A DNA stretch of 32,402 bases from Candidatus Levyibacteriota bacterium. Its GTDB lineage: Bacteria > Patescibacteriota > Microgenomatia > Levybacterales > UBA12049. Each line of letters starts with the position of its first letter. Positions within the stretch are counted from its first letter, which is position 1. This document shows, one piece after another, positions 12,476 through 25,118 of the stretch. Under the pieces are notes generated by a model. That model searched no databases, was not told the DNA's origin, and saw nothing but the letters and a program-made list of their open reading frames with translations. A program made the position numbers and the translations under genes. Location of the stretch: positions 200,125-232,526 of the forward strand of contig JACROF010000002.1 in assembly GCA_016214555.1 (NCBI GenBank), read 5' to 3'.

Positions 12476-12916
12476 TTACTCTACAACTATTGTTCCAGTC
12501 ATCTCAGGATGAATACTGCAATGGTATGAATAGGTGCCTTCCTTAGTAAAGGTGTAACTTCCTTCCTCGCCTTTTGCTAATACTCCTGTTGTAAAGACAT
12601 CATCGTCTGAAACAATATTGTGATCGGTCATTCCATCATTTCTCCATGTAACACTCTCGCCAACCTTTACCGTAAGTGATTCAGGCGTAAACATACTGTC
12701 ATTCATACTAACCACTCGTTGATCTTCGCTTGTGATTGTATTTGCAGTCTCATACATCATCTTTTCAGTACTTGATGGTTGATTGTAAAGAAAAAGCATA
12801 ATAATTGAGATGATAACAAATCCTCCACCCGCAATAATCAAAAATGAATGATCGTCAGTATGGGAAGTATGATGAACTTTTTTCTTTGCTGTTTTTGAAA
12901 CTCTCTTTTTTGCCAT
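12476..12916 (-). CDS. Membrane-anchored cupredoxin (type 1 blue copper protein)
   Basis: A 146-residue electron-transfer or copper-binding protein on the outer face of the membrane. A basic N-terminus (1-23) is followed by a transmembrane anchor (about 24-45), a linker, and a plastocyanin-like domain (about 66-146). All four copper ligands are in place: H99 in DHNIV, then C133, H136 and M139 in HCSIHPEM. The Shine-Dalgarno AAGGGGGGTGA (minus strand, about 12921-12931) lies just before the ATG. It is one of two cupredoxin domains in the window and fits the copper theme around 21.5-25.4 kb. It is convergent with the nuclease gene. Confidence 0.9.
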   Translation of the reverse strand: MAKKRVSKTAKKKVHHTSHTDDHSFLIIAGGGFVIISIIMLFLYNQPSSTEKMMYETANTITSEDQRVVSMNDSMFTPESLTVKVGESVTWRNDGMTDHNIVSDDDVFTTGVLAKGEEGSYTFTKEGTYSYHCSIHPEMTGTIVVE

Positions 12917-12933
12917 ATTTTCACCCCCCTTCG

Positions 12934-12959
12934 CCCGCCGAAGCTTTAGCGAAGGCAGG
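12934..12959. repeat. GC-rich palindromic mini-element in the cupredoxin leader
   Basis: Arms CCCGCC (12934-12939) and GGCAGG (12954-12959) enclose GAA-GCT-TT-AGC-GAA. It is much more GC-rich than its surroundings. It shares the CCYGCC/GGCRGG arms with elements inside copA and ychF. Confidence 0.6.
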
Positions 12960-13006
12960 TTTCGTTCCTCACTTTAATGTACATTATCCCTATGAGGTCG
13001 GGCCAC

Positions 13007-13022
13007 GGAGGAGTAAGCCTCC
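13007..13022 (-). promoter_or_regulatory. Leader hairpin upstream of the cupredoxin gene
   Basis: GGAGG (13007-13011) pairs with CCTCC (13018-13022) around a 6-nt loop. A TTGACA (minus strand, 13054-13059) and TATGAT (13029-13034) with 19-bp spacing lie upstream, so the leader would be about 105 nt and carry this hairpin plus the palindromic element. Its role is unknown. Confidence 0.35.
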
Positions 13023-13077
13023 TAATTCATCATACAATATTTTTGTAGTTAGTTGTCAACAGAGAAGTGAAGAATTA

Positions 13078-19664: not shown

Positions 19665-20784
19665 ATTCGATAACATCTCCATCCTCAACAATATAGTCTT
19701 TTCCCTCCAACCTTGCCTTTCCAACTTCACGAGCTTTTTTTCTCCCACCTGTTGCAATATAATCGTCAAAACTAATGACTTCTGCTTTGATAAATTTCTT
19801 AATAAAATCAGTGTGGATCTCCCCTGCAGCCATAGGCGCACTACTTCCTTTTTTGACAGTCCATGCCCTGACCTCTTTCTCACCTGCTGTGAGAAATGAG
19901 ATGAGCCCTAATCTCTCATAAGCTTTCTTGATCAAACGTTCAAGCCCTGACGCACCGACTCCTAATTCTGCAAGATATATCTGTTGATCATCAGCAGACA
20001 AACCAGCCAGTTCAGATTCTATTTTTGCACAAATAACAACCTGTCCGCCATCGCTACGCCCAGGCGTTAGCAGGCGGGTAAATCTATCTTCGATTTTAGC
20101 GATGCTGTCTGCGTTGTACTCATTCTCCGTGACATTGAGAACAATAATTTCGGGTTTGTTGGTGAGTAAAAACATATCCCTCATCGCTTCGCGTTCTTCA
20201 TCAGTCAAGACGACATCTCGAGCTGCAATCCCTTTATTAAGACCCTCAAACAATTTTTCTGCGGCTTCTTTTTGTCCTTTAATCTGTATTTTTGCTTTTT
20301 GATTTTTGATTTTTGCAATCGTACTGAGATCCGCAAGTATCAGCTCTGTCTGAATGGTTTCATAGTCGGTTTTTGGATCAATACTACCTTCACGAATTAT
20401 AATTTCAGCAGCTTGCCCTGAGCTTGCCGAAGGGTCTTCAAAAGCTCTCACAACATGAGCAATCACACTTACCTCTCTAATGTGCGAAAGAAACTTATTA
20501 CCCAGTCCTGCTCCTTCACTTGCTCCTTTGACAAGCCCTGCGATATCGACAAATTCAACTGTTGCAGGCTTAAGTGGTGGTAATTCAGGCATTTTCTCCT
20601 CATCTTTTGTGATCTCGGCAAGCTGAATCAAACGACTATCCGGAACTGGAACGATTCCTACATTTGGTTCAATAGTTGCAAAAGGATAATTTGCAGCCAA
20701 AGCCTGCTGCTTTTTAAGAAGGGCATTAAATAGAGTACTTTTCCCAACGTTTGGTAGACCTACAATACCGACTGATAGATTCAT
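19648..20784 (-). CDS. ychF: Redox-regulated ATPase YchF (OLA1 family)
   Basis: A conserved TRAFAC-class P-loop nucleotidase that binds ribosomes. It has 378 residues against about 363 in E. coli. The P-loop GLPNVGKST is at 9-17, G3 DIAGLVKGA at 80-88 and the G4 position reads NVTE (217-220), the NxxE form that favours ATP. The C-terminal TGS domain begins near 295 (TAGEKEVRAW). The extra length comes from two inserts encoded by GC-rich mini-elements: SASSGQA near 119-125 and LLTPGRSDGG near 238-247. Residues 158-170 are encoded by an A-rich repeated stretch. It starts 8 nt after a TATAAT -10. Confidence 0.95.
   Translation of the reverse strand: MNLSVGIVGLPNVGKSTLFNALLKKQQALAANYPFATIEPNVGIVPVPDSRLIQLAEITKDEEKMPELPPLKPATVEFVDIAGLVKGASEGAGLGNKFLSHIREVSVIAHVVRAFEDPSASSGQAAEIIIREGSIDPKTDYETIQTELILADLSTIAKIKNQKAKIQIKGQKEAAEKLFEGLNKGIAARDVVLTDEEREAMRDMFLLTNKPEIIVLNVTENEYNADSIAKIEDRFTRLLTPGRSDGGQVVICAKIESELAGLSADDQQIYLAELGVGASGLERLIKKAYERLGLISFLTAGEKEVRAWTVKKGSSAPMAAGEIHTDFIKKFIKAEVISFDDYIATGGRKKAREVGKARLEGKDYIVEDGDVIEFKIGA
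20045..20077. repeat. 33-bp GC-rich palindromic mini-element inside ychF
   Basis: Outer arms CCGCC (20045-20049) and GGCGG (20073-20077) flank an inner hairpin GCTACGCC-CA-GGCGTTAGC with one bulged base. Its 33 bp equal 11 codons, so the frame is kept. It encodes an extra loop near residues 237-247 that E. coli YchF lacks. Confidence 0.65.
20281..20320. repeat. A-rich repeated stretch inside ychF
   Basis: On the minus strand near-repeats of CAAAAAT and CAAAAAG encode a Lys/Gln/Ile/Asn-rich segment (about residues 157-170). It resembles the A-rich intergenic spacers near 17.5 and 18.1 kb. Confidence 0.35.
20411..20434. repeat. GC-rich mini-element inside ychF encoding SASSGQA
   Basis: Two GCTTGCC copies (20411-20417 and 20422-20428) and CCCT/AGGG arms form a 24-bp insert, eight codons. 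E. coli YchF has no equivalent residues between its ENDN and IIHVSG segments. Confidence 0.6.
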
Positions 20785-22868: not shown

Positions 22869-25118
22869 TTATATTTTAACTCTCTTTAAAAGCAATGAGT
22901 TGGATACTACTGAAACGCTAGATAATGCCATTGCTGCTCCTGCAAAAATGGGATTTAGCAAAATACCCCAGAATGGGAATAAAGCACCCATAGCTACAGG
23001 AATTAGTATGACATTGTAAGCAAACGCCCAAAACAAATTGGTCTTAATAGATTTTACTGTTTTTTTAGACAATTCAATAGATGAGGCAACAGATCGCAAA
23101 TCTTTATTAATTAAAGTAATATCTGCAGCCTCAATAGCTACATCTGTACCAGAACCCATTGCTATTCCAACGTCTGCTGCGGCGAGCGCTGGTGCATCGT
23201 TTACTCCGTCTCCAACCATTGCAACCTTTTTCTCTTCCGATTGAATTTTTCTAACCTCAGCTTCTTTCTGATCAGGGAGAACTTCTGCAAATACCCGTTC
23301 TATCCCCAATTTTTTCGCAATTGCATTTGCTGCTCTTTGATTATCTCCCGTAATTATGGCTACCTCAATTCCTTTTCCTTGCAACGCTTTTATACCAGCC
23401 TTTGCCGACTCTTTTAATGTGTCTGCAACAGCAATAATCCCGATAAGTTTATTGTTAACTGCAAGTAACATAACAGTCTTTCCTTCATCTTCAAGCTTAC
23501 CAATACTTTCAGTTACTGATTTATAATCTACTTTTTCTCTATCCATGAACCTACGATTTCCAAAGATGACTTTATCTTTTGCAACAATACCCTCAACTCC
23601 ATGACCAGCAACCGCCTGAAACTTTGTTGCATCACCGAGTTTCAGCTTTTCCACTTCAGCTTTCTTAACAATTGCTTCTGCAAGTGAATGCTCTGACCCT
23701 TTTTCTAAGGAAGCAGCAATACGCAACACTTCAGACTGTTTTATTTTTGCTACTGGGACAACATCAGTAACTTCAGGTTTACCATGAGTTAAAGTTCCTG
23801 TTTTGTCAAAAACCACACTATTTATTTGGCTTGCCATTTCTAAACTCTGCGCATCTTTGAAAAGAATTCCATGTTCTGCTCCCTTACCAGTTCCCACCAT
23901 TATTGCTGTAGGTGTTGCCAGTCCCATCGCACAAGGACAAGCAATAATCAGAACTGAAATCATACTTACTAACCCATTAACATAATTTCCAGTCAGAAGA
24001 ACCCATCCTAAGAAAGTTATAACTGCAATAATCAGAACTGCTGGAACAAAAATTTCTGAAACCTTGTCTGCCATTCGCTGAATTGGAGCTTTGCTGCCCT
24101 GTGCATCTTCTACCAATTTGATGATTTGAGCAAGCATTGTATCTGCTCCCACTTTTGTCGCCTTCATAATAAAGCTACCTGATTTATTAATTGTTGCCCC
24201 AATCACTAAAGCACCAACTGTTTTATCAACAGGCATACTTTCACCCGTTACCATTGACTCATTTATTGATGACTCACCCTCAATAATCACACCATCAACT
24301 GGTATTTTCTCTCCAGGTCGGACTCTAATTAGATCATCAACTTTCACTTCTTCAATAGGGATATCCAATTCCTGCCTGCCGGCAGGCAGGTCTTTTCCAT
24401 TTCTTACTACTCGTGCAGTTTTAGCTTGAAGTCCTACTAATTTTTTTATTGCATCGGAAGTGCGAGATTTAGCTCTTTCCTCAAGAAATTTACCTAAAGT
24501 GAGAAATCCAATCACGATTATGGTTACATCATAGTAGTTGTGCTCGGTATTCAAATACTGTGCAAGGGGCCCTTCAAAGGCAGTAACGATAAAGCTGTAC
24601 AGAAATGCAACAAGCGTCCCAATACCAACCAAGGTATCCATATCTGCGCTTCTAGTTTTTATAAATCTCCAAACCCCAGCAAGATATGGTCTACCCACCA
24701 CAAACATCATGTATGTTGCTAGGAGTGGAAATAAGTGATGGAAAAATTCTTTAATGGTATAGCTCATTGGAAAAAAGATTTCCCAGAGCATATATAAAAT
24801 ACTTATCGCAGCAATAGGGATTGAAACCAAAACATTTTCTTTCAGTTTGTTCTGATCGGTAGTGTGACTCATATGATCCACGTGGTTCACATTATTTTTA
24901 GGTTGTTCCATTACAAGTTCATATCCTTTATCTTTTAGTGCAGAAACAAGGTCATGTTCAGAGGTGTGTTCACTATATTTCACGGTAGCTTTGTTTGTCG
25001 CTAAATTAACAGAAGCATCAGATACTCCATCCACTTTCTTAAGCGCCCTCTCAATTACATTAACGCAAGAAGCACAGCGCATTCCTTTAACATCAAAAGT
25101 TTTTTTTACATTATTCAT
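22869..25118 (-). CDS. copA: Cu(I)-exporting P1B-type ATPase
   Basis: Exports Cu(I) from the cytosol with ATP. It has 749 residues with one N-terminal HMA domain (GMRCASC, 12-18) and a His-rich linker (about 79-86). The actuator motif is TGES (291-294), the membrane metal site CPC (394-396), the phosphorylation site DKTGT (438-442), the P1B motif SEHSLAEAI and the hinge [10 protein letters not shown]. The last helices hold YN and MALSS, the Cu(I)-type signature. Residues 244-249 (LPAGRQ) are encoded by a perfect 20-bp palindrome inserted in frame in the actuator region. It starts 8 nt inside the csoR end. A weak AAGAAA precedes the ATG. Confidence 0.97.
24371..24390. repeat. Perfect 20-bp GC palindrome inside copA
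   Basis: CCTGCCTGCC followed by its exact reverse complement GGCAGGCAGG. It encodes LPAGRQ in CopA. The flanking gene is AT-rich, so the segment stands out. The arms match the intergenic element at 12934-12959. Confidence 0.9.

Follow-up and report, generated by a model that had tools for sequence, protein, structure and literature searches.

The window, that is, the whole stretch of 32,402 nt from a Candidatus Levyibacteriota bacterium that was analyzed, carries a cupredoxin gene on its minus strand, and a 26-bp palindrome is located upstream of the start codon of this gene (position 12916). On the forward strand the palindrome reads CCCGCC GAA GCTTTAGC GAA GGCAGG, as given in an earlier sequence-only reading of this DNA, and on the mRNA strand CCTGCC-TTC-GCTAAAGC-TTC-GGCGGG. 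Its outer arms contain one C/A mismatch and are followed inward by a GAA/GAA internal loop and a GC-TTTA-GC core. Downstream of it, the minus strand continues with CGAA, GGGGGGTGA, AAAT, and the ATG of the cupredoxin. In a palindrome scan of the window the single copy is a modest hairpin that falls below the scan threshold; it is by its recurrence that the element exceeds chance. The GC content is 38% in the window and 33% in the 419 kb examined (loci L009 to L028). The features of the leader are compiled in Table 1. Promoter-like scores of at least 9.5 were found for 6 of 25 leaders versus 13 of 250 random points.

Table 1. Positions in the window of the cupredoxin gene, its leader, and the parts of the leader
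Feature	Position	Strand	Basis
P2 hairpin (the palindrome)	12934..12959	-	sequence, R1 match, pairs counted
Whole leader, ~107 nt	12921..13027	-	R2 match, model positions 1-109 (G000:C1:213045-213151:-; L316)
P0 helix, anti-SD strand (part of CTCCTCC)	13008..13013	-	alignment columns 15-20
Shine-Dalgarno (SD) GGGGGG, other half of P0	12924..12929	-	sequence and leader alignments
P1 5' arm CCTCA	12993..12997	-	sequence; present in folds
P1 3' arm TGAGG	12967..12971	-	sequence; present in folds
Cupredoxin gene behind the leader (146 aa)	12476..12916	-	ORF/protein
TTGACA, -35-like	13054..13059	-	consensus match only
TATGAT, -10-like, spacer 19	13029..13034	-	consensus match only

The palindrome belongs to a family of mobile palindromes of about 30 nt that is present at low copy number in several phyla. 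With up to 3 mismatches it was found at 6 sites of its own genome (reversed control, 0), and its 21-base core with up to 2 mismatches at 265 sites in 62 of 100 genomes, namely, the own genome and 99 relatives (reversed control, 2 sites). At an E value of ≤0.001, model R1, built from 60 copies of which the window copy was one training row, detected the element in 77 of the 100 genomes, with 10 copies in the own genome and a maximum of 51 per genome. The exact 19-base core occurs in at least 118 named stretches in several phyla; among the matches listed (80 of at least 118), the carriers comprise several Patescibacteria, many Bradyrhizobium, Bacteroidota, Nitrospirae, and Omnitrophota, together with a Dependentiae, a Rickettsiales bacterium (contig L131), and a Legionella. 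At locus L031 of genome G075, which is of the same class as the window, the 70 bases displayed are identical to L107 of Candidatus Curtissbacteria; the most likely origin of the window is accordingly among the Microgenomates of the Patescibacteria. Fourteen viral contigs of IMG/VR contain the 18-base core, and a plasmid search with a 61-nt query gave no match. The core and tag strings were not found in the literature, with subscription papers and sequences printed with breaks being beyond reach.

The architecture of the family was derived from 78 unique copies, taken from 80 of the at least 118 stretches and selected by the core alone with the flanks left free. Stem pair -4:+3 is held in 61 of these copies versus 31.4 in shuffled sets (maximum, 43) and stem pair -2:+1 in 70 versus 54.3 (maximum, 63), whereas the third free pair, held in 55 versus 50.6 (maximum, 57), is not beyond all shuffles. 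Two of the three free inner pairs thus lie above all shuffles, as in a short imperfect hairpin with a covarying stem. On the purine strand the hairpin is preceded by a 5' YTTG-like tag (Y,.86; T,.55; T/G,.77; G,.64), and beyond the other foot nothing is clearly conserved in the 78 copies. In the family plan, this tag is followed by an imperfect hairpin of 26 nt whose internal loop is mostly GNA/GNA. The loop is not absolute, since copies with GTC/TAT instead of TTC/TNC are found repeatedly. Compensatory arm changes are also seen in alignment A1, whose arm covariation and GNA motif are biased because its rows were filtered for paired arms and GNA loops. The sequence-only reading had proposed to build a covariance model from genome-wide copies and named a lack of further copies, or of compensatory changes in their arms, as evidence against it; further copies with such changes were found.

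The same reading had grouped the element with palindromes inside the ychF and copA genes of the window, and this kinship was not shown, as R1 has no other match in the window up to an E value of 3. The copA palindrome CCTGCCTGCCGGCAGGCAGG (24371-24390) is a clean in-frame insertion of 7 amino acids relative to one printed alignment with a solved CopA, and the ychF palindrome (20041-20077) is no clean insertion relative to the one printed YchF alignment and has no R1 match; the foot of the latter, CCTG-TCCGCC, resembles the family tag plus arm. A high-copy REP in the own genome was rejected, since few copies were apparent when k-mers were counted over 419 kb, and a scan of these 419 kb for GC-rich hairpins returned other hairpins, none of this palindrome family.

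A spread of the element as a discrete unit is supported by two exact differences of 30 nt between filled and empty sites. In Bradyrhizobium betae (L108), filled and empty versions of a host repeat are found at different places of one locus, and the difference corresponds to the tag (4) plus the hairpin (26). The host repeat reads as a CGTC-tagged REP by the description in the available text of Di Nocera et al. 2013 (PMC3733652). In the relative G050, a complete second unit of 30 nt is embedded in P2 of leader L344, at a place that is uninterrupted in leader L311 of the same genome. In addition, the cupredoxin leader L267 of G075 has a CTTG-tagged unit inside a P2-type hairpin directly before the SD, for which no empty counterpart was seen. 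The insertion site in L108, L344, and L267 is CGA^AG on the purine strand, with an ambiguity of 2 nt. Near-30-nt pairs that are not exact were observed among the matches listed for the Bacteroidota L096 and L099. Target site duplications are weak: flank-repeat scores of at least 11 were obtained for 7.6% of 198 copies versus 1.5% of 396 controls, with some of the high scores being tRNA or tandem artifacts. With the tag taken as 4 or 5 nt, the flank was identical to the distal arm in 22 of 194 copies versus about 8 expected. A sequence like a CGTC REP, GATTGCTTCGCTACGCTCGCAATGAC, was observed in the relative G018 (L053:2287, L230) and in L184.

Since 30 is a multiple of 3, in-frame insertion is possible. 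Rickettsia palindromic elements (RPEs) insert in frame, and for the present family insertion in frame into conserved protein genes was likewise found. At least 12 of the ORF frames carrying copies read as known proteins, as judged from their translations. The copy in DHFR is a 12-amino-acid insertion in all four printed alignments, its 36 nt being longer than the 30-nt unit, and the copies in RadA, ArgRS, and ValRS lie in variable loops without clear gaps in the alignments. Copies are also enriched at tRNA genes, of which one was present within 150 bp for 30 of 230 copies versus 10 of 690 random windows; in 11 copies an arm overlaps the tRNA end by 3 to 6 nt. Two tandem units, each a tRNA-Arg 5' half plus palindrome, precede an intact tRNA-Arg at L029:1395-1620. 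At L006:1460-1560 (minus strand), a copy is located between a short frame encoding a trpS start (MKKKVYSGIRAT) and a full trpS-like gene, with most synonymous sites being different between the two starts.

The distribution of the family bears on a reading that we consider unlikely, namely, that the element is a selfish REP-like repeat without function here, which landed upstream of an SD by chance and was kept as harmless. Long ORFs harbor 24 of 55 copies versus 162 of 220 random points, and 21 copies are elsewhere; this depletion in ORFs, as if copies were purged from genes, and the clustering near tRNA genes would fit such a repeat. The absence of the window copy from the leaders of the G044 cupredoxin gene and of its syntenic counterpart in G001 points in the same direction. 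More generally, of 30 cupredoxin loci, six hold an R1 match at E values of ≤0.001, and in three (the window, G075, and G068) the palindrome is inside the leader. In G068 some 70 nt, with another hairpin among them, separate the copy from the downstream SD, and in the G001 leader the SD is preceded by a different hairpin, with a weak R1 match (16.8 bits) further upstream. Set against a stray repeat are leaders with P0 and P2-type hairpins in front of DUF5679-like genes (L311, L313, L317, L319, L379, and L383, from 6 genomes belonging to 5 genera), and an anti-SD that tracks the variant of the SD in 29 of 34 leaders (see below), which would not be required of it.

The sequence-only reading had likened the element to REP elements mobilized by TnpA-REP transposases and suggested a search of the genome for a Y1/RAYT gene. 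Two Y1_Tnp genes are present in the own genome. One of them (L007, G000:C5, ~41067-41297) is flanked on both sides by, in all, three copies of AGGGGTTTCACCCCT, a repeat unlike the window element of which one more copy is at L016:1695; this gene and AGGGGTTTCACCCCT are a separate RAYT/REP-like pair. Some other Y1 genes also have different palindromes on both sides. None of 32 Y1 loci (101.7 kb; flanks of up to ~1.5 kb) carries the element as judged by R1, and 3 of 20 further, larger Y1 loci from high-copy genomes carry a copy, at 397 to 636 nt from the Y1 frame. No copy adjoins any Y1 gene in the 52 of 225 Y1 matches examined. A Y1/RAYT gene as direct neighbor and source was rejected, given the lack of adjoining copies at these 52 and the other palindrome at the own Y1 gene.

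It is also rather improbable that the element is a REP proper that is moved in trans by the Y1 (RAYT) transposases of the genome, although several observations are consistent with it. The tag and imperfect hairpin, without an obvious long target duplication, are of the expected kind, and copy number correlates with Y1 count in the 100 genomes (Spearman 0.36, P 2.7e-4; partial r of 0.33 after genome size and contig number), the coefficient being 0.53 within the family (61 genomes). All 22 genomes with at least 10 copies have a Y1 gene, as do 71 of the 100 genomes overall. However, the correlation is absent (0.01) among 30 members of the class outside the order, 19 of the 29 genomes without Y1 have 1 to 8 copies, and G087 has 18 Y1 genes and no copies. 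The absence of copies adjoining the 52 Y1 genes examined and the other palindromes flanking some Y1 genes, including one of the own genome, also argue against movement in trans. Of the REP-like spread proposed earlier, a mobile and covarying family is retained and the copy number correlation remains, whereas a cognate RAYT is not supported.

A comparison with known repeats leads to a similar picture. According to the available text of Di Nocera et al. 2013 (PMC3733652), REPs of the GTAG superfamily are hairpins of 20 to 40 nt with a tag at one end, the stems vary by compensatory change, some copies are inside genes, and GTAG-3 has noncomplementary di- and trinucleotides between stem and loop. 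The element resembles the GTAG REPs thus described in hairpin size, end tag, unpaired nucleotides by the loop, compensatory stems, and copies in genes. It differs from them in its YTTG-like tag, its few copies, its frequent location in long ORFs or at tRNA ends, and the absence of an adjoining RAYT among the Y1 genes examined. Accordingly, no GTAG tag was seen at the hairpin foot of the 78 copies, no RAYT gene flanked by the same repeat among 52 of 225 Y1 matches, and the family is neither of high copy number (10 in the own genome; maximum, 51) nor mostly extragenic (24 of 55 in long ORFs). The same text describes CGTC REPs as being present in several phyla, also inside genes, with no dedicated transposase known, and equates CGTC-1 and CGTC-4 of R. 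conorii with RPE-6 and RPE-4. The element shares all three properties with CGTC REPs and RPEs, the latter being considered here by description, but its tag and stem differ, and no CGTC tag was seen in the 78 copies. The B. betae unit was inserted into what reads, by that description, as a CGTC element.

Evidence for a structured leader emerges from the copies close to start codons. Ten of 55 copies are directly upstream of an SD and a start, versus 1 of 220 random points, and five of these ten, from five genomes in four genera, have a similar context before five different genes. When up to 2 mismatches were allowed, the pattern of a P2 arm plus SD, GGCGGGCGAAGGGGGGTGA, gave 41 sites (control, 1), which are spread over 24 of the 82 genomes of the order. 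Twelve leaders with a recognizable upstream part, chosen by eye from 30 read, were aligned (A2) and share the order G-run, CTTG-like, C-rich anti-SD, GNAG, CCC, hairpin P1, GCGAAA-like, P2, and CGAAGGGGGGTGA. In helix P0, anti-SD, GNA, and GCCC face GGGC, GAA, and SD. In these 12 leaders, 95.3% of the cells of P0 and of a small helix, P3, are paired, versus 44 to 60% for slides. Two-sided changes occur in 5 of the 15 pairs of P0 and P3 versus 1.9 in shuffled sets, with only 2 of the 5 being among the 10 pairs of P0, and in 6 of 9 pairs of P2 versus 2.9; the number of further pair types is not above shuffles.

Model R2, which holds P0 and P2, was trained on these 12 leaders, including the window copy. 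In an alignment fitted to R2 (A3) of 47 leaders at E values of ≤1e-4, which come from 46 loci chosen among the strongest R2 matches and include the 12 training leaders, two-sided changes occur in 11 of 14 pairs versus 5.4 in shuffled sets. At the pair that joins base 3 of the anti-SD to the variable base of the SD, 25 leaders have CG, 11 UA, 5 AU, 1 UG, and 4 another combination. The R2 search from which the 46 loci were chosen also gave partial matches that comprise the palindrome alone. When motifs alone were compared, 29 of 34 classified leaders, among them all 7 outside the order, had an upstream motif that followed their variant of the SD. This comparison drew on the 28 top-scoring leaders of the 47 and on 8 of the wider class, two of which, L324 and L386, were unreadable. 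GGAGG is matched by CCTC in 9 of 11 leaders, GGTGG by CCAC in 2 of 2, and GGGGG by CCCC in 18 of 21; the motif of 16 of these 18 can likewise be read as CCT. For the two GGTGG leaders, it is the SD and not the upstream G-run that the anti-SD tracks. The SD/anti-SD covariation across the leader set indicates that P0 is selected. A conserved helix pairing the SD is found for the set; the window, one of the three unmatched GGGGG cases, has CTCCTCC and not the CCCC partner of its GGGGGG, and can form this helix only with two of the six pairs between anti-SD and SD being G-U.

At E values of ≤1e-6, 25 of the 233 genomes searched in the class contain an R2 match, and 19 of them are outside the order. 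The eight wider-class leaders read precede DUF5679-like (two), HU (two), and other genes, the names of all leader genes except the window cupredoxin being readings of protein starts. Among the weaker R2 matches, P2 together with an SD and no evident anti-SD was found for HU (L351 and L357), YbaB (L334, L350, and L352, with L315 being the exception), and a locus of the own genome (L354); in L343 the anti-SD is mismatched. Ten matches to Rfam were found for 14 loci at E values of up to 1, none of them over the leader or the P0-SD region, and no Rfam family describing the leader was found. Matches to RNase P RNA of about 430 to 500 nt, below the Rfam cutoff, were noted at two HU leader loci (L302:1802-2298 and L306:695-1122). 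A second leader type, with the same outer arms and SD and about 50 to 60 nt replacing the small loop, was observed in L285, L286, L291, and L310, and a stretch like TTCGGCTTTTCAATTCTRTTCGA is common to L285 and L291.

Hairpins other than the family palindrome are found in the P2 slot, e.g., in L321, L323, L347, L382, and L386, with L382, L384, and L386 being three of the eight wider-class leaders, and no hairpin at all is present in L325 and L331. P2 is hence exchangeable. Such leaders, and the unrelated hairpin of the G001 cupredoxin leader, would be expected if leaders favored any stable hairpin before the SD and the likeness to a mobile repeat were due to chance or local template switching, a mechanism that can make arms match without selection. 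This convergence has a low probability in our view, as the family core is in P2 of many leaders and is common elsewhere in those genomes, and as P0 joins segments that are about 90 nt apart.

The explanation that we prefer, with moderate confidence, is that a mobile palindrome was built as hairpin P2 into a recurrent leader that controls translation. The suggestion in the sequence-only reading that the element could shape the cupredoxin mRNA is supported in terms of its place in a structured, recurrent leader with covarying helices. In this leader, the upstream anti-SD segment can pair with the SD across the GNA/GAA internal loop to form P0, which would lower translation. P2 separates P1 from the SD and is one CGAA away from the latter; it probably arrived at the leader by insertion and may tune the control by P0. 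As the 3' arm of P2 shares three bases with the inner P0 helix, its folding should loosen P0. Predicted folding energies do not decide between the pairings. For 40 of the 47 leaders, the ensemble has the SD largely in a paired state, with a median unpaired probability of 0.175 and an opening cost of about 4.7 kcal/mol, and P0 has a median of 5.6 kcal/mol above the minimum. In the minimum-energy fold of the window leader the SD is paired with the left arm of P2, a pairing that was rejected as it shows no covariation. A hairpin of G-run, CTTG, and C-run as antisequestor was also rejected, being not above its slides.

Translational riboswitches and other SD-sequestering leaders have an upstream segment complementary to the SD and competing helices. 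Both properties are shared by the window leader type, which differs from known riboswitches in the lack of an Rfam match (14 loci), in the very heterogeneous genes that it precedes, and in the use of a mobile palindrome as a module. A broader and much more tentative proposal, doubtful at present, is that of a class-wide cis-regulatory leader of small-genome bacteria that is assembled from mobile palindromes. A tagged fold, x-CTTG-x'-GNA-core-GNA-x, would jump as a 30-nt unit, carry or land beside an SD, and turn into a portable two-state control of translation for unrelated genes, with nesting at two scales in the copy of the window.

How these reduced and mostly uncultured bacteria control translation is little known. 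A leader with an SD-tracking anti-SD precedes DUF5679-like, HU, ATP synthase c-like, and other genes and is directly testable. Furthermore, a 30-nt palindrome that, with no transposase adjoining it, enters genes, leaders, and the surroundings of tRNAs in several phyla makes an older question testable, namely, what moves the repeats of the CGTC and RPE types.
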